A stretch of 64,000 bases of DNA from Leptolyngbya sp. FACHB-321 (GTDB lineage: Bacteria > Cyanobacteriota > Cyanobacteriia > Leptolyngbyales > Leptolyngbyaceae). Positions within the stretch are counted from its first letter, which is position 1. Every line of letters begins with the position of its first letter. Made by a program: the position numbers and the translations under genes. The notes below the pieces were generated by a model. The model ran no database searches. It had not been told where the DNA came from and saw only the letters and a program-made list of their open reading frames with translations. The stretch lies in contig NZ_JACJPI010000058.1 of assembly GCF_014695975.1 (NCBI RefSeq), positions 620,001 to 684,000 of the forward strand, read 5' to 3'. This document shows, in pieces, positions 1 to 7,478 of the stretch.

Positions 1-1934
1 ATTGGCAGTCTGACTCTAAAGGTTGCTCCTTGTTCTTCTCCCGGACTCTCTGCTTGAACGGTGCCCCCATGCAATTCAACCAGATAACGCACGATGGCTA
101 GCCCCAACCCTAACCCGCCAAAGCTGCGAGTCGTGGTGCTATCCGCCTGACGGAAGTACTCAAAGACATGGGGCAGGAAGTCGGAGGAAATGCCCTTGCC
201 TGTGTCGCTAACAGTGATCTGAGCGTAAGTTAGGGCATGGGAAGTCGGGCGTGAAGAGTGAGGCATTTCTCCCTGTCCTATGTCCTCTTCCCCGCTCCTT
301 ACTTCCTCTAACCGTACTTCGACTTGACCACCCTGTTTGGTAAATTTAACGGCATTGGTAAGTAGATTCCACACAACCTGTTGCAGCCGACTAGCGTCAC
401 CCAAGACCTGCCCAACGTTGGGTGCAAAGACGGTTTTAATCTGAATTGCCTTTGCCTCAGCCGCAAGCCGCACGGTTTCAAGGGCAGCTTTGATAGTAAA
501 CGTCAGACCGACTGAATCTGTATGCAAACTCAGCTTGCCCTGAAGGATACGCGAGACATCAAGCAGATCTTCAATGAGTTGCGCTTGTAATCTGGCATTC
601 CGTTCGATGGTCTCAAGCGCATACTGGGTTTTAACCGCGTCCTGCTGGCTCGTTTGCAGAATTCTTGCCCAGCCCAGAATCGGATTGAGGGGCGATCGCA
701 ATTCATGCGACAGCACTGCTAGGAACTCATCTTTGATCCGGTTAGCGGTCTCAGCTTGTTCACGAGCCTCTTGCTCACGTATCAGCAGTTGTTCGCGTTC
801 AGCGATTGCTTGCTTTTGCCTGGTCATATCACGTGAAACAACCAGGAGTTGTGTAACCTGTCCCAAGGCATCCTGAACCGGAGTCACTACGACATCCCAC
901 CACTTGAGTGTGCCCTTTGCTGTAGGGCAAAAGCCCTGAAACTGTCCGCTATTACCGGCTTTGGCAGCGGCGATCGCTCCTTTTGCCTTGTCCTTATCCT
1001 CGCCTTGCCAGAAACTAAACCACTCAACGCCTAGCAAGGACGTAGGATTATCAACCTCTAGCAGCTGTAGGGCACCCTTGTTTAAGTAAAGTATGCGTCC
1101 ATCTAACGTCAAAACTTTAATGCAGTCTTTACTACTTTCTAGAATGCGTTGCTTTAACGCTTCACTCTCTTGTAGAGCCGCTTCTGCTTGCTTACGAGCG
1201 GTAATGTCCGCCAGGATGAAAACGGCACCCGTAAAGGTGCCCTGTCCGTCCAACACTGGATCCATCGTTTTGGCAAACCACCGTCCTTTAGCCTGAAGTT
1301 CTAGAACTTGACGCTGGTGCGTTGCTTGTGCCTGCTGAAAGCAGGTGCCATCTCCCAGCCCTAACACCCCACGCATCAACTCATAATGAACGCGCCCCAG
1401 AATTTCATTGAAGGGTTTGCCAAAAAGTTGGCTCATTGCCTGATTACAGCGTATAACTTTGCCGTCTGGGTCTACCAGACAAACCCCATCGTTAATGGCA
1501 TCAAAGGTCGTTTGCCAATCTCGTGCTGAAGCTAGCGCTGTTTCCTCTGCTCGTCGAATGCGTAGCAGCGATCGCACCGTAGCAAGCAGTTCGATCGGTT
1601 CAACAGGCTGCACAAGATACGCATCAGCGCCGCTGTCTAAGCCCTCGGCTTTATCCTGGCTTTGAACAAAGCTAGCCGAGAGATGCAGCACTGGTAGAAA
1701 CTCAGAGTCGGGGTTGGACTTAATCTGACGACAGACTTCAAACCCGTTTAAGTCGGGTAGCTTCACATCCAAAATCACCAGGGCAGGCTGATGAGCAGCG
1801 ATCGCAGCTAAACCTGCGGCTCCAGTTGCTGCTTCCACAACGGTAAAGCCTCCGTTTCGCAAAATCCGTGCTACCACATAACGATTAGCTTCACTGTCAT
1901 CTACATGTAGGACTGTCAACTGCGGCTCAGCCAT
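1..1934 (-). CDS. Response regulator-PAS-PAS-histidine kinase, C-terminus beyond window
   Basis: Open frame read from the reverse strand, starting at the ATG at 1934 and running off the left edge, so about 644 residues are visible. Domains in order: receiver (residues 1-120, phospho-acceptor D56 in the LVILDVKLPD motif), PAS (about 145-260), second PAS (about 275-390), HisKA with the motif LSHELRSPLNPILGW, then HATPase_c with N-box (WNLLTNAVKF), G1 (DTGKGIS) and G2 (GGLGLGLAIVR). It should be a soluble sensor kinase that autophosphorylates on the H-box histidine and is itself modulated by its receiver. It starts 11 bases after the preceding kinase gene and is the last visible gene of the stressosome operon. 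An extra segment of about 25 residues splits the ATPase domain between EVRLEEV and AQITVSD. Family assignment is firm; the ligand is unknown. Confidence 0.93.
   Translation of the reverse strand, partial: MAEPQLTVLHVDDSEANRYVVARILRNGGFTVVEAATGAAGLAAIAAHQPALVILDVKLPDLNGFEVCRQIKSNPDSEFLPVLHLSASFVQSQDKAEGLDSGADAYLVQPVEPIELLATVRSLLRIRRAEETALASARDWQTTFDAINDGVCLVDPDGKVIRCNQAMSQLFGKPFNEILGRVHYELMRGVLGLGDGTCFQQAQATHQRQVLELQAKGRWFAKTMDPVLDGQGTFTGAVFILADITARKQAEAALQESEALKQRILESSKDCIKVLTLDGRILYLNKGALQLLEVDNPTSLLGVEWFSFWQGEDKDKAKGAIAAAKAGNSGQFQGFCPTAKGTLKWWDVVVTPVQDALGQVTQLLVVSRDMTRQKQAIAEREQLLIREQEAREQAETANRIKDEFLAVLSHELRSPLNPILGWARILQTSQQDAVKTQYALETIERNARLQAQLIEDLLDVSRILQGKLSLHTDSVGLTFTIKAALETVRLAAEAKAIQIKTVFAPNVGQVLGDASRLQQVVWNLLTNAVKFTKQGGQVEVRLEEVRSGEEDIGQGEMPHSSRPTSHALTYAQITVSDTGKGISSDFLPHVFEYFRQADSTTTRSFGGLGLGLAIVRYLVELHGGTVQAESPGEEQGATFRVRLP
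230..310. repeat. Purine/pyrimidine-rich repeat inserted in frame in kinase gene
   Basis: Reading the top strand, GGGCGTGAAGAGTGAGGCAT is followed by a C/T-rich run (CCTGTCCTATGTCCTCTTCC). This style matches the low-complexity intergenic tracts elsewhere in the window (16040-16200, 34905-35040, 37600-37778). Here it is translated in frame as a hydrophilic loop of about 25 residues inside the ATPase domain of the kinase. Boundaries are approximate. Confidence 0.5.
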
Positions 1935-1945
1935 AGCGCTTTCCC

Positions 1946-4078
1946 TCAAGGCTCCAAGACAAGCCCAGCTTTAACAAAGGCATCTCGAAGTTGAGCCAGT
2001 GTCGCTGCTTGAGCAGTCGTTTCTTTGGAGAGAATAGCAATACTTTGGGCAGTTAGACGGCTCTGCGCCTCTATATCCAGTTGTGTAGACGAGTAGATAA
2101 TGACAGGAATCGCTTGAGTGTTGGGATTGTGCTTGAGCCGATCGAGGACATCAAAGCCGCTAACTTCTGGCATCTCCAGGTCAAGCAGGATAGCGGTTGG
2201 CTGTGCAGTCTCTGCCAAGGCAAAGCCCTCTTGTCCATTTACAGCTTCTAAAATTTGTAATGGAGTCTCTGCCAACAATTGCTTCACCACATACCGATAG
2301 GCTGGGTCATCATCAACCAGCAAAAGCGTTTGAGCTTTTCCCTGACTAACTAGCCTATTCAGTTTGCTGAGCAAGGGCAATCGGTCTACAGGCTTAATTA
2401 AGAAGGCATCCGCTCCTAGTGCCAGCGCCTGCTGTTCGTTATCAATCACAGTAATCACTAAGATCGGGATGCTGCGAGTCGCTTCATCGCTTTTCAGTTC
2501 TCGCAGAAACGTCCAGCCATTCTGCCCGTCGAGCAGGATATCCAGAATGATCGCTGCTGGTCGCAGTTGCTGCAAGGCTTTCCGAGCGTCCGCCAGAGTG
2601 CGGGCTGCAATCAGTTGATATCTTGATTCTTGCAGGTGCTTCTCATAGATAAAGAGCGTTTCAGTATGGTCTTCAACCGCAAGAATCGGCAGGTGAGCTG
2701 CTTTCAACGGTGCGATCGGTTGCAACAGGGAGGGCAGTTCAGTGGCATGGGGGTAGACGATCGGCAGCGATACTGCAAAAGTGGAGCCTTGTCCCGGCTG
2801 GCTGTGCACTGAAAGACTGCCACCCAGTAGCTCTGCTAGCTTACGTGCTAAGGGTAAGCCTAGCCCAGTGCCTTTTACCTGCTTTTGCAACGGGGACTCA
2901 ATTTGGACAAAATCCTCAAAAATGCGTTCCTGATCTTCGGGTGTCAAGCCGATACCTGTATCCGACACCGAGAGGACGACCATATGCCCTGCGTGCGTGG
3001 CTGTCACTCGCACCTCTCCCTGCTCCGTAAATTTGAGCGCATTGGAGATAAAATTTCTGAGAATTTGAGCGACTTTGCTCTCGTCGTTGTAGAGCGTTGG
3101 CAATCCCTCTGGTTCCTCAAAGATGAGCGCCACAGAAGTACCCTCCACTAATAAGGGGCGCAACATCCCTCTTAAGGTGCCGAACAAATCGCTGACTTCA
3201 AACGCACTCGGACGCACCTCAATTTTGCCAGCCTCGACTTTAGCGAGATCCAGCAGATCGTTGACCAATTCTGACAAGCCACTGGCTGCTTTTTGCATGA
3301 AGGTGACTTGCTTTTCTTGCTCTGCCGTTAGATCGCCATCCATACGAGCCAGCAGCATACGAGAGAGCGACAGAATTGAGTTGAGCGGTGTGCGAAACTC
3401 GTGGCTCATGTTTGAGAGAAAGCGGGTTTTGAGTTCGTTTGCCTGCTGCAAGGAGCTTGCTTTCTCATCAAGTTCAGCATAAAGGGCAACGACACCGCGA
3501 TTGGTGTCTTCTAATTCTTGATTGAGCTGCGTTAGTTCGTCCTCTCGCTTCCGCAGGTCTGCCATTGCTTGCAGCAGTTCCTGGTTTTGCCGCTGGACTT
3601 CTTCATACGGATTCTGGGGCGATCGTGCTGTCACCGCTTCCTGAAGCTGCCGCAACTGTGAAGCAGTCAAGGTTGGTGCCCGTTTCGGCAACGGTTTACC
3701 TACTACTACCGTGGTTCCTTGTTCTGGCAGCGATTCAATCTCAAAGAAGTCCATCAGCCTACGAGTGCCAACAAGACCTACTCCCATGCCTGTTGATGAG
3801 GTGTAGCGTCCTTCTAAAACGTCGGCTAGATGAGGAATGCCCTTACCCTGATCTTGCACTCGCACTAGAAACGTTTGAGGCTCTCCCTCTACGTAATATT
3901 CAACCGTTCCGCCCTTCGCATACTGAAACGCATTACGGGCAAGCTCTGACACAGCGGTTGCCAAGCGCACCTGCTCTTGAGTCTCAAACCCCAACTGCTC
4001 AGCGAGTTCGCGGGTTCGCTGCCGTGCCTGCACTACATCTTGCTCGACATTCACTACAAGCTTGAAGAGGGTTGTCAT
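1946..4078 (-). CDS. Hybrid histidine kinase with N-terminal RsbT-like ATPase and two receivers
   Basis: 710 residues. Residues 1-130 form an anti-sigma-factor/RsbT-like ATPase (SELARNAFQYAKGG around N49, DQGKG at 76-80, GMGVGLVG at 97-104). A predicted coiled coil follows (150-215), then HisKA with H226 (MSHEFRTPLNS) and HATPase_c (N346, DTGIGL at 373, GTGLGLPLAR at 403). Two receivers come last, with D513 and D633 as phospho-acceptors and conserved lysines K562 and K685. No membrane segment is seen, so it is cytoplasmic. The ATG overlaps the stop of the upstream phosphatase gene by 4 bases (ATGA), which implies translational coupling. The fusion of a switch-type ATPase to a two-component kinase suggests it links stressosome state to phosphorelay output; that link is inferred. 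Confidence 0.95.
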   Translation of the reverse strand: MTTLFKLVVNVEQDVVQARQRTRELAEQLGFETQEQVRLATAVSELARNAFQYAKGGTVEYYVEGEPQTFLVRVQDQGKGIPHLADVLEGRYTSSTGMGVGLVGTRRLMDFFEIESLPEQGTTVVVGKPLPKRAPTLTASQLRQLQEAVTARSPQNPYEEVQRQNQELLQAMADLRKREDELTQLNQELEDTNRGVVALYAELDEKASSLQQANELKTRFLSNMSHEFRTPLNSILSLSRMLLARMDGDLTAEQEKQVTFMQKAASGLSELVNDLLDLAKVEAGKIEVRPSAFEVSDLFGTLRGMLRPLLVEGTSVALIFEEPEGLPTLYNDESKVAQILRNFISNALKFTEQGEVRVTATHAGHMVVLSVSDTGIGLTPEDQERIFEDFVQIESPLQKQVKGTGLGLPLARKLAELLGGSLSVHSQPGQGSTFAVSLPIVYPHATELPSLLQPIAPLKAAHLPILAVEDHTETLFIYEKHLQESRYQLIAARTLADARKALQQLRPAAIILDILLDGQNGWTFLRELKSDEATRSIPILVITVIDNEQQALALGADAFLIKPVDRLPLLSKLNRLVSQGKAQTLLLVDDDPAYRYVVKQLLAETPLQILEAVNGQEGFALAETAQPTAILLDLEMPEVSGFDVLDRLKHNPNTQAIPVIIYSSTQLDIEAQSRLTAQSIAILSKETTAQAATLAQLRDAFVKAGLVLEP

Positions 4079-5100
4079 ACGCCGTTTCCTTTGGCTACCA
4101 GCACCGTCACATCATCGCGATCGCGATGAAAGTCTCGGTACAGCACGCCTGCAATCAGACTGGGATGTTTGAGGCTTAAGCCTGGGTAGCGATCGAGCTT
4201 CCACTGAGTGCCTAAGCCGTCAGAATGCATAATCAAAAGTCCATTCGTAGACCAGGGATAGGTAAACTCTTGAATTTTGCGAACCTCATGCCCAACTGTA
4301 CCGTTGTGCGACATGAGATTGCGGTGTTCGGTGCCAGAGGCAATGCTAGCCGCGATGTTGCCTACACCAGCAAAGCGAACCGACTGCTGTTCAAAGTCAA
4401 TTTCGGCGATCGCCAGGGCAGCACCGCGAGTGCTTCGTAGGGCGGCGTGGGTGGCTTCGATGATGGCATGAGGCGATCGGTGATGATGCTCTTGAAAAGC
4501 TCTCAAAGCTGCTGCGGCAGCGCTGGCAGCAGCGGGTCCGTGCCCAAGTCCGTCTACCACAAGCAGCAAGCAACGATGAGTTGCTCCTTGACAGCTCCAG
4601 GTATCGCCCGAAACCGTCTCTCCTAGCTTCGGTAAGCACACACCACCGACTTCTAGAGTGTTTTCAGGTGGATGGTATTTTGAGTCTGACCAAAGATGCG
4701 CCAAAATTGCGGTTCCCTTTGCAGGCGGGGAGTAGATTTCAAAGAAGCTAGAGAGGCGATGAATGGCACCTAGCCCATTGCCTGCGGTGCCGCCAGTGGA
4801 GAAGCCATCTTTCAGGCAATCATCGACATCAAGCATCCCCCGTCCTTGATCTAGCGCTAGGATTTCAATGCCAAGAGTGGCATATTGATCGATCGCACGC
4901 AGTACCACCGCACCGCCATTACCATGCTGCACAAGATTGTTAGCAAGCTCGGTGACAACAATGCCCACCTTACCTCGCTCTCCTTCGTTAAAACCGAGGC
5001 GACTCGCTAACGCCAGCGCTACCCGTCGTGCTTCCCCTGCCTGGCTAGATTCAGTAATAGGAATGGCAATCGATTCTTTCATGCTTTGGTCATCACTCAT
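4075..5100 (-). CDS. RsbT-like ATPase fused to PP2C/SpoIIE-type phosphatase (RsbX-like)
   Basis: 341 residues in two domains. Residues 10-135 are a serine-kinase/anti-sigma ATPase (VVTELANNLVQHG with N54/N55, LDQGRGM at 83-89, GNGLGAIHR). Residues 150-338 are a PP2C/SpoIIE-type phosphatase with the metal-binding aspartates in SGDTW (D166), VDGLGHG (D183), SDGLG and RDDVTVLVA. In the Bacillus stressosome, RsbX is the phosphatase that resets phospho-RsbR/RsbS. Here the same activity seems to be carried with a second RsbT-type kinase domain, giving a kinase-phosphatase switch in one chain. It lies 95 bases downstream of rsbT and overlaps the next kinase gene. Partner proteins are inferred from position. 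Confidence 0.93.
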   Translation of the reverse strand: MSDDQSMKESIAIPITESSQAGEARRVALALASRLGFNEGERGKVGIVVTELANNLVQHGNGGAVVLRAIDQYATLGIEILALDQGRGMLDVDDCLKDGFSTGGTAGNGLGAIHRLSSFFEIYSPPAKGTAILAHLWSDSKYHPPENTLEVGGVCLPKLGETVSGDTWSCQGATHRCLLLVVDGLGHGPAAASAAAAALRAFQEHHHRSPHAIIEATHAALRSTRGAALAIAEIDFEQQSVRFAGVGNIAASIASGTEHRNLMSHNGTVGHEVRKIQEFTYPWSTNGLLIMHSDGLGTQWKLDRYPGLSLKHPSLIAGVLYRDFHRDRDDVTVLVAKGNGV

Positions 5101-5195
5101 TCCTCAGAAAACTCAAGGCTTCAAACTGCTCTTGTGATCATAAACCGAGTCTCTTCCTCTCTTCATCCCTCTGTCGCTGCATCTCCATCCCGCTT

Positions 5196-5594
5196 TCACT
5201 TCCAGCGTACGATCGTGATCCGCGTGCCCTCCCCCACAGTGGACTCGATCTCAAATTCGCTAGCGAGTCGTTTGGCACCGCTTAACCCCATCCCTAACCC
5301 TTTACCGGTCGTAAAGCCGTCCTTTAATGCCATCTCAATATCAGCAATACCCGGACCTTGATCTTCAAAGGTGAGCCTAAGCCCCTGCCGCCCTCCTGCC
5401 TGAAGCTTTTCCAGCATCATGGTGCCGCCACCGCCATAATCCAGGGTGTTGCGGGCTAACTCACTGGCGGCTGTCACAATTTTAGTTTGGTCTACTAAGC
5501 CAAAGCCGATCGCTACTGCAAAGTGGCGCACGGCTTGCCGCACTAAAACGACATCCCCAGACGACTGGATGCTTATTGTTTCAGGCTTCTCCAT
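5196..5594 (-). CDS. rsbT: RsbT-like switch protein serine kinase
   Basis: A 132-residue protein if translation begins at the ATG at 5594, which overlaps the end of rsbS by 14 bases. A longer frame to 5642 exists but would overlap rsbS much further. It is a single GHKL ATPase domain: SELARNTLDYGGGG (N49), EDQGPGI (D78), GKGLGMGLSGAKR (98-110). In the Bacillus system RsbT phosphorylates RsbR and RsbS and is held in the stressosome until stress releases it to activate downstream partners. The order rsbR-rsbS-rsbT is the standard one. Only the small RsbT domain is present, so this is the core kinase, distinct from the two larger proteins downstream that carry similar domains. Confidence 0.95.
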   Translation of the reverse strand: MEKPETISIQSSGDVVLVRQAVRHFAVAIGFGLVDQTKIVTAASELARNTLDYGGGGTMMLEKLQAGGRQGLRLTFEDQGPGIADIEMALKDGFTTGKGLGMGLSGAKRLASEFEIESTVGEGTRITIVRWK

Positions 5595-5994
5595 TGCCCT
5601 CTGCATCACTTGTAGTAGCAGTGACCTGATTGACGGTGTCACCGAGCGACGATCGCAAGAGTGTCATGCCCTTTTCTACGTTTAACGCAGTGCGAATGCC
5701 CGTCAGCGACAACCCCAGTTCTACCAGCGTAATGGCTACAGCAGGCTGCATACCGACGACAACCGTCTCGGAACCCAGCACCCGTGCCATTTTGGCGATG
5801 TTGCCTAAAATCCTGCCGATAAAAGAATCAACGATTTCTAACGCAGAAATATCAATCAAGACACCTTGAGCGTAAGTTTGAGTAATGCGGTTAGTCAGGT
5901 CATCCTGTAAGGTCATGGCAAGCTGATCATGCATATCGACCTGAATGGTGACAAGCAAGAAATGACCCATTTGCAGTATGGGAATGCGCTCCAT
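5581..5994 (-). CDS. rsbS: RsbS-like stressosome STAS scaffold protein
   Basis: 137 residues, a single STAS domain. The motif IDISALEIVDSFIGR contains S57, which aligns with the phosphorylated S59 of Bacillus RsbS. VVVGMQPAVAITLVELGL is the usual second conserved block. RsbS forms the core of the stressosome with RsbR and captures RsbT. The ATG at 5994 lies 16 bases after the rsbR stop and the 3' end overlaps rsbT. The last ~17 residues (from about DTVNQVTATT) look like an unstructured tail longer than in Bacillus. Confidence 0.94.
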   Translation of the reverse strand: MERIPILQMGHFLLVTIQVDMHDQLAMTLQDDLTNRITQTYAQGVLIDISALEIVDSFIGRILGNIAKMARVLGSETVVVGMQPAVAITLVELGLSLTGIRTALNVEKGMTLLRSSLGDTVNQVTATTSDAEGNGEA

Positions 5995-6010
5995 CCGTTT
6001 CTCCTCTCAC

Positions 6011-6862
6011 CTATTTGGGTTGCGAACGAGTGATGGTTGCTCCCACTCGCTTAAGCGCCATCAGCAGGGCATCGGCTAACGTTGCTTTCGTAATCACGCC
6101 CGTTAAATCGATACCGAGATACACGATCGTTTGGGCAATTTGCGGTCGAATGCCGCTGATAATACAGTCCGCTCCCATCAAACGAGCCGCTGTCACTGTC
6201 TTAAGAAGATGTTGAGCCGTCAGAGTATCGACCGTCGGCACACCAGTAATGTCAATAATGGCAACTTCTGACCCGGTTTCAACAATCTTCTGCAATAACG
6301 ACTCCATCACAACCTGAGTGCGGGCGCTATCCAGAGTGCCAATAATCGGCAGGGCCAAAATACCTTCCCACAGCTTGACCACTGGCGTAGACAGTTCCAT
6401 TAACTCTTCCTGCTGCCGCAGAATCACTTCCTCCCGCGCCTTCTGATACGCTTCTACCGTCAGCAGACCCAGCCGATCCAGTAAGGTTGTGGCTTGCCAG
6501 ATCGCGTCGCTGAGTTCAGCAGAATCCTTTAAATGCTGCTGTAGGCGGTTAAACAGCGGTTGTTTGAACGAAAAGACAAACGAAGCTGTTTCAGATGGCG
6601 TAAAGCCCTTGTGCGATCGCGATCGCGAAACGCTCGTCAGCATCTCTCGAACCTCTTGCCATTCTGGTGCCTTGAGATTAGCCAAATTACCCTGCTGAAC
6701 CGCAGTGCGAAGCAACCGAAGAAACTCACGACACTCTTCCTGTAGCTCCGCGTCTTTGATTAAACTCTTCCGAGCGTTAGTCGCTACTAACTCCTGATGC
6801 CACTCAGTCAGCAGATCTGTCTCATAGATTTCTAATAGCTCAGGTATCTTGCTTCCGCTCAT
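6011..6862 (-). CDS. rsbR: RsbR-like stressosome sensor (RsbRD-type N-domain plus STAS)
   Basis: 283 residues from the ATG at 6862, which has GGAG five bases upstream; a GTG nine bases further out (6871) is a weaker alternative. The N-terminal 1-145 are helical and resemble the RsbRD-type co-antagonist N-domain rather than a haem-globin. The C-terminal STAS domain (about 160-278) has ITGVPTVDTLTAQHL and SGIRPQIAQTIVYLGIDL, so both phosphorylatable threonines (T213, T245) of RsbR are present. It is the probable sensory subunit and the first gene of the operon. The signal sensed is unknown; no cofactor motif is visible in the N-domain. Confidence 0.93.
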   Translation of the reverse strand: MSGSKIPELLEIYETDLLTEWHQELVATNARKSLIKDAELQEECREFLRLLRTAVQQGNLANLKAPEWQEVREMLTSVSRSRSHKGFTPSETASFVFSFKQPLFNRLQQHLKDSAELSDAIWQATTLLDRLGLLTVEAYQKAREEVILRQQEELMELSTPVVKLWEGILALPIIGTLDSARTQVVMESLLQKIVETGSEVAIIDITGVPTVDTLTAQHLLKTVTAARLMGADCIISGIRPQIAQTIVYLGIDLTGVITKATLADALLMALKRVGATITRSQPK

Positions 6863-7478
6863 CGTCTCCACAGGGCAACCCCTTTTATTGGTGCAAAATT
6901 AGTGTATGACTATCTAGCCCACCCAGAAGGCTTAACTTTACCCTTAACTCTGCCAATCGTAGAGACAATGTGCCGTTTATTTCGGTGAAGGGTGACCTGC
7001 CCTTCTGCCAAAGGGAGCGGAAAGACCATGAGAGCATCAGGTTTCCAGCCTTTGAAACTCGGTCAAATTGCCTTTGTAGCAGCCCTTTTGAGCAACAAGC
7101 TGTCCAAAGTTTAGCCTAACATCACTAGTACACCTTTACAGGCGTTGTTCTGTACAACAGTTCCCCTTAGCTTTAACAGCGTTGCAGTGCAGCAGTTTCA
7201 GCAGTGTCGATTGTACTGACAATTAGCTCTCGAAGTAGTACAAAGTGAAGCAGTCTGAGGTCGATCGACCGGGGTGCAAGCTGTTTTTAGATAGAATATT
7301 TACATAGCTTTATGCTGGATACCGCTACCTCTGGCAACCATTCCTCACAGCAAAGCAATGCTAAAACATGACTAGCGCAATGAAGCTGGCGCTATAGCAG
7401 CAAGGTGGATGCTACTCGTGAAGTAGCGTTCAGCCTCATTAAGCACTGACAAGAAATGTAAGACCCTTGGGATGAGAC
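6863..7478. other. 616-base intergenic region upstream of stressosome operon
   Basis: A divergent spacer between rsbR (minus) and the DUF433 gene (plus). It must hold both promoters. I see no convincing sigma-70 boxes, riboswitch, tRNA or long open frame. A 28-codon frame at 7030-7116 preceded by GGAAAG is too short to support. Confidence 0.4.

Follow-up and report, generated by a model that had tools for sequence, protein, structure and literature searches.

How does a stress signal leave the stressosome and reach the histidine kinases that are encoded next to it? This question is raised by an operon of the cyanobacterium Leptolyngbya sp. FACHB-321, which lies at the start of the 64,000-nucleotide stretch analysed here (contig NZ_JACJPI010000058.1, positions 620,001 to 684,000 of the forward strand; hereafter the window). 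This minus-strand operon (window positions 1-6871) contains six genes, encoding RsbR, RsbS, RsbT, an RsbX-type phosphatase fused to an RsbT-like domain (TX), a hybrid histidine kinase that also begins with an RsbT-like domain (HKT) and a second hybrid kinase (K2), and it extends 469 bases beyond the window start (Table 1). Modules composed of RsbR, RsbS, RsbT and RsbX (RSTX) and coupled to two-component proteins are already known (PMC9237108; PMC10014275). What appears to be new is the presence of RsbT-like domains on RsbX (domain Tx) and on the kinase (domain Tk), from which a tether mechanism is proposed below. We consider that the stressosome may be wired to its outputs in cis, through RsbT paralogues carried by the output enzymes, a reading in which we place slightly more belief than doubt. 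An RsbT paralogue within the kinase would be a direct and testable answer to how the signal exits the complex, and this for a large bacterial group.

Conservation and Distribution of the Module

The initial annotation of this DNA described RsbR-RsbS-RsbT, an ATPase-PP2C fusion, an ATPase-led hybrid kinase and a receiver-PAS-PAS kinase, separated by short gaps or overlaps. The open reading frames (ORFs) and their Pfam domains agree with this layout: RsbR (N-terminal sensor and STAS domain), RsbS (STAS) and RsbT (GHKL kinase) follow each other in this order, and the last protein indeed starts as REC-PAS-PAS, although it is cut by the window start and in its full form also ends in a REC domain. 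The same annotation treated the layout as a property of a single operon, which did not hold. RsbS is present in 11 of the 292 genomes of the phylum, and the order R-S-T-TX-HKT is kept in all nine genomes of the same class that contain RsbS, that of FACHB-321 included, which places the arrangement beyond chance. K2 is the next gene on the same strand in five of these nine genomes; at locus L022 (L-numbers are the locus labels of this analysis) a K2-like gene lies on the opposite strand, and at L017, L019 and L021 the REC pair is missing from HKT and the stretch read contains no K2. In the three remaining loci of the phylum (L023-L025), X stands unfused. When genome contigs were scanned with the RsbS alignment, at least 576 relatives were returned, of which the best 80 were kept as a locus sample that is biased toward window-like RsbS by this choice. 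Within it, X is fused to an RsbT-like domain in 74 of the 74 loci in which X is covered, and Tk is present on the kinase in 67 of the 73 loci in which the histidine kinase is covered, or in 65 of 71 if two kinase ORFs cut by contig ends are set aside (L052 and L062, the latter with a 37-residue match only). The six kinases without a recognised Tk are those of L068, L076, L083, L090, L103 and L104; the N-terminal domain of L076, matched by no hidden Markov model (HMM), is perhaps a decayed Tk and was counted as lacking it. An artefact or chance origin of the layout was rejected on the conservation of gene order and fusions, and a fusion created by frameshift or misassembly because dozens of assemblies carry the same one.

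Judging by record titles, the module spans Cyanobacteriota, Acidobacteriota, Gemmatimonadota, Planctomycetota, Myxococcota, Nitrospirota, Pseudomonadota, Chloroflexota and Rokubacteria. Gene order varies, with HKT preceding rsbR at L061 and with TX and HKT on the other strand at L048, L054 and L097. TX and Tk are also found on plasmids of Sphingomonas and of Deinococcus radiodurans R1 (MP1), the latter with an R-S-T-TX-HKT-HK layout, HK being a further histidine kinase (L109, 3128-8932 of NC_000958.1). Plasmid records with a Tk match number 103 and those with an RsbS match 99, and the leading genera among the matches listed are nearly the same. On a plasmid of the archaeon Halobaculum halophilum (L112, 3789-8187), R-S-T-TX precedes a PAS kinase and a REC-HalX regulator, and RsbR has a weak PAS match in place of RsbRD_N. 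A Tk call for this locus was rejected and not counted, since Pfam shows that the match is the kinase's own HATPase domain. Public annotations name the parts of the module STAS domain-containing protein, anti-sigma regulatory factor, ATP-binding protein and, in a single case, ATP-binding SpoIIE family protein phosphatase.

Tk follows the stressosome closely. At an E-value of 1e-12, the Tk profile matched in 12 of the 292 phylum genomes, which cover all 11 genomes with RsbS; the twelfth is a 73% complete genome with a matching frame of 105 residues. Matches above 170 bits occurred in nine of the 292 genomes and every one lies within the module, at most 14 candidates having been scored per genome. 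It is conceivable that Tk and Tx have no stressosome-specific role, being remnants or GHKL domains of the common sort, given that GHKL domains are common, that some Tk copies have decayed and that one clade of module kinases lacks the domain. This confinement of strong Tk matches to the module, together with the conservation over many phyla of the position of the domain, its register to the linker and its docking residues, makes that explanation very unlikely.

RsbT, Tx and Tk are Separate Paralogues

A 95-row tree separates RsbT, Tx and Tk with one label change each, which suggests that the triplication is old. It is a quick tree built on few columns and with long outgroup branches, in which Tk forms one clade (Shimodaira-Hasegawa-like approximate likelihood ratio test [SH-aLRT] support of 100) and RsbT and Tk group together, with a Lysinibacillus RsbT inside (SH-aLRT 97). 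Tx forms a clade for 29 of its 30 rows (SH-aLRT 95), the archaeal L112 sequence remaining outside, and as whole groups RsbT and Tx reach only 78 and 73. By this tree Tk is the sister of RsbT. The closest RsbS relatives of the operon and its nearest neighbours in the tree point to a cyanobacterium as its source, the genome measuring 6.7 Mb. Tx is without several RsbT hallmarks, as T47 is replaced by I or L and R29 is not kept.

Three further observations concern the history of these domains. L024 contains a second free RsbT-like ORF (5961-6368, minus strand) adjoining the unfused X; it is unplaced beside Tx in the tree and may depict the arrangement that preceded the Tx-X fusion. Sequences from Archangium (L065, Myxococcota) and from a Chloroflexi metagenome-assembled genome (L069) sit within a Tx clade (SH-aLRT 98) whose other members are all cyanobacterial, a position suggestive of horizontal transfer of the module. 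Finally, the T, Tx, Tk and kinase domains of Nitrospira (L067, Nitrospirota) and Nitrosospira (L079, Pseudomonadota) are near-identical, with short branches, reflecting either transfer across phyla or a mis-binned contig.

Docking Residues Outlast the ATP Site in the Kinase-Borne Copy

In the complex of the related anti-σ kinase RsbW with RsbV, the interface involves RsbW Arg23, Asp42, Lys44/Ser48, Glu49 and Tyr118, and Glu49 contacts the target serine (PMC7340262). In SpoIIAB, Glu46 is the base, Asn50 serves Mg binding and Arg20 is close to the partner site (PMC10345196). The column of the docking Arg holds R in all 76 Tk sequences, in 93 of 94 RsbT and in 86 of 87 Tx, and that of the Glu is invariant in all three classes (94/94, 87/87 and 76/76); these pooled counts, like those of 96 RsbS rows and 87 kinase ORFs given below, hold a few duplicates, as L019/L050 and L021/L053 are, judging by their lengths, apparently the same contigs. 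The catalytic residues behave differently. The Mg-binding Asn and the G1-box Asp are both intact in all 94 RsbT and all 87 Tx, but at least one of them is missing from 10 of the 76 Tk, a set found by phmmer in which more strongly decayed copies could have been missed. Seven of the ten altered Tk are fully degenerate (Archangium, three Paraburkholderia, Caballeronia, Massilia and Singulisphaera); L100 differs at the Asp only, and L054 and L097 are partly decayed. The seven degenerate copies nevertheless keep R25, R29, R44, T47, E51 and R54 (alignment columns) and the RLMD motif. On a tree of the histidine kinase core (49 rows; a quick tree from which L064 was omitted for length), the degenerate state needs four changes, at least three of them by well-supported branches, so that, judging from this tree, full decay of Tk arose at least three separate times. 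Tk can thus lose ATP binding and not its partner face, and it therefore looks like a docking module, tether-like rather than a third working Ser/Thr kinase. Such copies, which occur in nature with their ATP site decayed, would allow docking and catalysis to be told apart. In the window, the ATP-site and docking residues of all three domains are intact, those of Tk being R19, E45, N49 and D76.

These residues bear on the proposal, made in the initial annotation, that three ATPases compete for one RsbR/RsbS scaffold. If RsbT, Tx and Tk were all active kinases on RsbS and RsbR, their occupancy of the scaffold would split the output between a phosphatase and a phosphorelay, and it fits such a competition that all three window domains retain the N-box Glu and Asn, the G1 Asp and the G2 glycines and that Tx never loses the Asn or the Asp (0/87). 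Kinase activity of Tk is however not needed in general, because the Mg/ATP residues are lost in 10 of 76 copies and, in three or more separate lineages, lost completely without disappearance of the module, and Tx lacks the RsbT hallmarks mentioned above. Competition among three working kinases is therefore unlikely. That all three domains address RsbR/RsbS receives indirect backing, as Tk is the sister of RsbT, docking residues are kept in all three classes and strong Tk matches in the phylum genomes occur only in stressosome loci; as competitors they fare less well, being old, specialised paralogues of which the kinase-borne one has lost ATP-site residues in several lineages.

The presumed targets are conserved as well. 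S57 of RsbS, which the initial annotation had named as the phosphosite, is invariant in 96 of 96 rows. Of the two RsbR threonines it proposed, T213 and T245, the first (T216 in the numbering from the GTG) is a threonine in 93 of 94 rows and S in one, and we take it to be the equivalent of Bacillus T205. The second is not the equivalent of Bacillus T171, a place that we assign to S182 (S in 92 of 94 rows, T in one, a gap in one). This second threonine (T248 from the GTG) is itself invariant in 94 of 94 rows. By sequence, RsbS thus provides the phospho-acceptor Ser and RsbR the Thr of a stressosome.

Another use of the conserved Tk surface has to be weighed here. Tk and Tx could partner RsbT itself, so that RsbT freed from the scaffold would pair with Tk through α1 and β1 and switch HKT, which would never touch the scaffold. 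RsbW dimerises by these same elements (PMC7340262), α1 residues are among the most conserved of Tk, also in degenerate copies, and Tk is the sister of RsbT. On the other hand, the positions at which RsbW contacts its STAS partner through Arg and Glu are likewise retained by the degenerate copies of Tk, and Tk-Tk pairing within the kinase dimer would compete with RsbT. We regard this pairing as improbable, to the same degree as the competition among kinases.

The Fusion Proteins TX and HKT

The AlphaFold2 (AF2) model of TX is of high confidence (predicted local distance difference test [pLDDT] 93.3, predicted template modelling score [pTM] 0.93), and is based on a 59-row alignment of 58 of the 74 TX loci plus the window. 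Its best fold matches are 3zt9 (Z 28.8) and RsbX (3w40, Z 25.4), and its Tx part matches SpoIIAB (1til, Z 18.1, root-mean-square deviation [rmsd] 1.9, 128 aligned residues). D166, D183, D294, D329 and D330 are invariant in the 59 rows, as in an RsbX-type PP2C phosphatase; TX is not a single-domain RsbX, because an RsbT-like domain is fused to its N-terminus. TX may thus work like RsbX, yet within a distinct architecture.

For HKT, the length rules retained 64 of the 67 Tk loci, and 51 of these plus the window formed a 52-row alignment, from which residues 1-290 were modelled (pLDDT 89.5, pTM 0.61). Tk has the GHKL fold, and its best solved matches are SpoIIAB (1th8, Z 16.9, rmsd 2.0, 124 aligned residues) and RsbW (6m36, Z 14.9, rmsd 1.5, 103 aligned). 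Histidine kinase catalytic domains match at about Z 9, and this difference and the tree led us to reject the possibility that Tk or Tx is an ordinary catalytic domain of this kind. Tx and Tk both combine an anti-σ/RsbT-kind GHKL fold with the docking Arg and the N-box Glu. HKT is also a genuine hybrid histidine kinase, with HisKA and its phospho-His (H226, invariant in 52 rows), HATPase_c and REC domains.

A single helix, predicted for residues 157-243, connects the tail of Tk to the HisKA helix. The linker before HisKA, presumably what is called a signalling helix, ranks with the best conserved stretches of HKT (no variation over 52 rows at L189, T192, N193, G195, L199 and E202). The pattern [ED]TNx[GA] occurs in 79 of 87 kinase ORFs, and in 71 of the 87 it lies 20-60 residues before SHE[FL]R, at a distance of exactly 34 in all 71; the remaining 16 lack such a motif pair, some through small motif variants. 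The Tk-less kinases except L076 retain the linker motif, and a variant of it occurs in the Halobaculum kinase. On a Phaeobacter plasmid (L115, 6743-7897), a Tk-like N-terminal domain (85 bits) is found on the module's HisKA_2/HWE kinase, and Tk therefore sits on more than one type of kinase; either Tk was transferred from one kinase family to another or the module exchanged its kinase.

Tk as a Possible Replacement of RsbU_N

Activation of RsbU by RsbT reportedly works through the ordering of a coiled-coil linker in RsbU (PMC12143880), and histidine kinases with the RsbU_N domain occur alongside stressosomes (PMC12143880; PMC9237108). The kinases of the three unfused-X modules start with RsbU_N (61.8, 55.9 and 16.4 bits, the last below the cut-off of 25.5), the kinase of L025 being encoded upstream of rsbR. 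By contrast, RsbU_N is found in none of 52 Tk-bearing kinases, HKT of the window included, and the FACHB-321 genome has no RsbU_N match at an E-value of 0.01. Since kinases of unfused-X modules carry RsbU_N and Tk-kinases do not, Tk seems to occupy the place that RsbU_N holds elsewhere, a contrast that rests on three unfused loci. In the survey of globin-coupled modules in PMC9237108, most downstream signalling proteins are described as lacking RsbU_N, and in that system no interaction of RsbT with the downstream kinase VvD1 was obtained. A built-in tether that replaces RsbU_N would, if true, explain how stressosomes whose kinases lack this domain reach a phosphorelay.

Proposed Mechanism and its Weighing

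In the mechanism we propose, RsbR and RsbS would form the sensing scaffold and RsbT would be the switch kinase, as in known systems. Tk would dock HKT onto the STAS surface of RsbR/RsbS in an RsbT-like manner, and this docking may either inhibit or activate the kinase. Upon stress, RsbT would phosphorylate S57 of RsbS and T216 of RsbR and the docked RsbT-type domains would be shed, after which the freed or re-seated Tk pair would reset the helical linker running into the HisKA dimer and HKT would be switched. HKT would then pass its phosphate to its own REC domains and probably to the REC at the N-terminus of K2. In other loci, all ten scanned proteins encoded downstream of the module kinase begin with REC (seven REC-histidine kinases, two REC alone and one archaeal REC-HalX). 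A phosphorelay output is plausible. Tx would bring the RsbX phosphatase to the same STAS surface, where removal of the phosphates would reset the complex. Tk in cis would thereby take the role that RsbT bound to RsbU_N plays in trans elsewhere. The broader claim, that this is a second and widespread wiring in which the scaffold holds its output enzymes via welded RsbT paralogues and the kinase copy has several times become a pseudokinase tether, we advance tentatively, its chances falling just short of even.

Several points weigh against wiring in cis. The models are of single chains, which cannot show docking, and the pTM of the HKT piece is modest. The docking Arg and Glu are common to RsbW and SpoIIAB and therefore indicate a STAS partner, not RsbR/RsbS specifically; column 44 is K or R in these domains versus Asp42 in RsbW, and column 50 (RsbW Ser48) is Leu in four of the seven degenerate Tk. 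As α1 and β1 also dimerise RsbW, the conservation of some Tk residues may reflect pairing with another Tk or with RsbT. RsbU_N matches below the cut-off (19-22 bits) occur outside the module in six of the other eight same-class genomes. Moreover, seven kinases of fused-X modules lack Tk by class HMMs (L113 in addition to the six named above), and that of L116 lacks it by phmmer. In the kinase core tree six Tk-less kinases form one clade (SH-aLRT 96), with L076 apart. Six of the seven keep the helix motif, so the helix can be driven without Tk. Lastly, a different link has been put forward for Vibrio vulnificus, in which released RsbT transiently phosphorylates the downstream sensor kinase (PMC9237108), and the role of Tk might be limited to presenting the kinase to RsbT. 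All RsbT rows are intact (0/94 lost) and Tk-less kinases occur in otherwise like modules, as transient phosphorylation would allow. It leaves unexplained, however, why the kinase carries an RsbT paralogue and why docking residues outlast ATP residues in Tk, and we consider it quite unlikely here, somewhat below the two alternatives discussed above.

Gene Organisation of the Operon

The genes are tightly spaced, with 16 nt between rsbR and rsbS, 95 nt between rsbT and TX, a 4-nt overlap of TX and HKT and 11 nt between HKT and K2. The likely start of RsbT (ATG 5594, 132 residues) overlaps the end of rsbS and is more likely than GTG 5642 (148 residues), because many homologous RsbT ORFs are 132-136 residues long. 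The C-terminal REC of K2 is encoded by the 469 extra bases; the next gene is convergent, and the operon therefore encodes no DNA-binding response regulator. A promoter and terminator scan gave 5 and 13 sites versus 6.8 and 9.0 in shuffled sequences. For five of the proteins, no NCBIfam family exceeded its own cut-off among the matches listed (for HKT, the best 25 of 156).

Table 1. Features of the stressosome operon, in window coordinates.
Feature	Position	Strand	Description
RsbR	6011..6871	-	RsbRD_N sensor and STAS (Pfam); GTG start, alternative ATG 6862
RsbS	5581..5994	-	STAS (Pfam); putative phospho-acceptor S57, codon 5824-5826
RsbT	5196..5594	-	Free-standing GHKL domain (Pfam HATPase), predicted switch kinase; 132 residues from ATG; ORF open from GTG 5642
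TX	4075..5100	-	RsbT-like GHKL domain Tx fused to RsbX-type PP2C; Pfam HATPase_c_2 and SpoIIE
Tx	about 4681-5100	-	TX residues 1-140
PP2C part of TX		-	TX residues 148-341
HKT	1946..4078	-	710 residues: RsbT-like GHKL, helical linker, HisKA, HATPase_c, REC, REC; Pfam HATPase_c_2, HisKA, HATPase_c and two REC
Tk	3680..4078	-	N-terminal RsbT-like domain of HKT, residues 1-133
HKT linker	3431..3610	-	Signalling-helix-like, residues 157-216; ETNxG..ALYAEL motif
K2	1..1934 and 469 bases beyond window start	-	REC-PAS-PAS-HisKA-HATPase_c-REC (Pfam); likely ATG at 1934

Comparison with Known Systems

Among the literature titles and abstract openings listed, none reports an RsbT-like domain joined to RsbX or to a kinase, an older survey of RsbRST modules (2005) and a 2017 review lying outside this scope, so that an earlier description is possible; the available parts of PMC5209427, PMC4976288, PMC10120452, PMC3999984 and PMC8115616 have no bearing on such a fusion.

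With the SigB pathway of Bacillus subtilis (RsbR-RsbS-RsbT, RsbX and RsbU-RsbV-RsbW-SigB), the window shares RsbR, RsbS, RsbT and an RsbX-type phosphatase, and also the phospho-serine site in RsbS and the T205 site in RsbR. It differs in that the operon lacks rsbU, rsbV, rsbW and sigB, that its RsbX bears an RsbT-like domain and that its output is a pair of histidine kinases. The nearest structural match of the PP2C part of TX is 3zt9 (Z 28.8), an entry titled Moorella stressosome that we take to be MtX of Moorella thermoacetica. The 3zt9 chain differs from TX in having 193 residues and no GHKL domain, and the Moorella output protein MtG is an RsbU_N-GAF-GGDEF protein (PMC12143880). The VvRsbRSTX-VvD1-VvD2 module of V. 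vulnificus likewise consists of RSTX followed by two-component proteins, with no sigma factor, and differs from that of the window in its RsbX, described as single-domain, and its globin-coupled RsbR (PMC9237108). Section 10 of the same paper does not mention any RsbT-like domain carried by the kinase, and in some relatives the downstream protein uses RsbU_N. Finally, the anti-σ kinases SpoIIAB and RsbW share with Tx and Tk the GHKL fold, the docking Arg and the N-box Glu. However, they bind sigma factors and single STAS proteins, whereas Tk of the window clusters with RsbT, and both Tx and Tk form part of an output enzyme.

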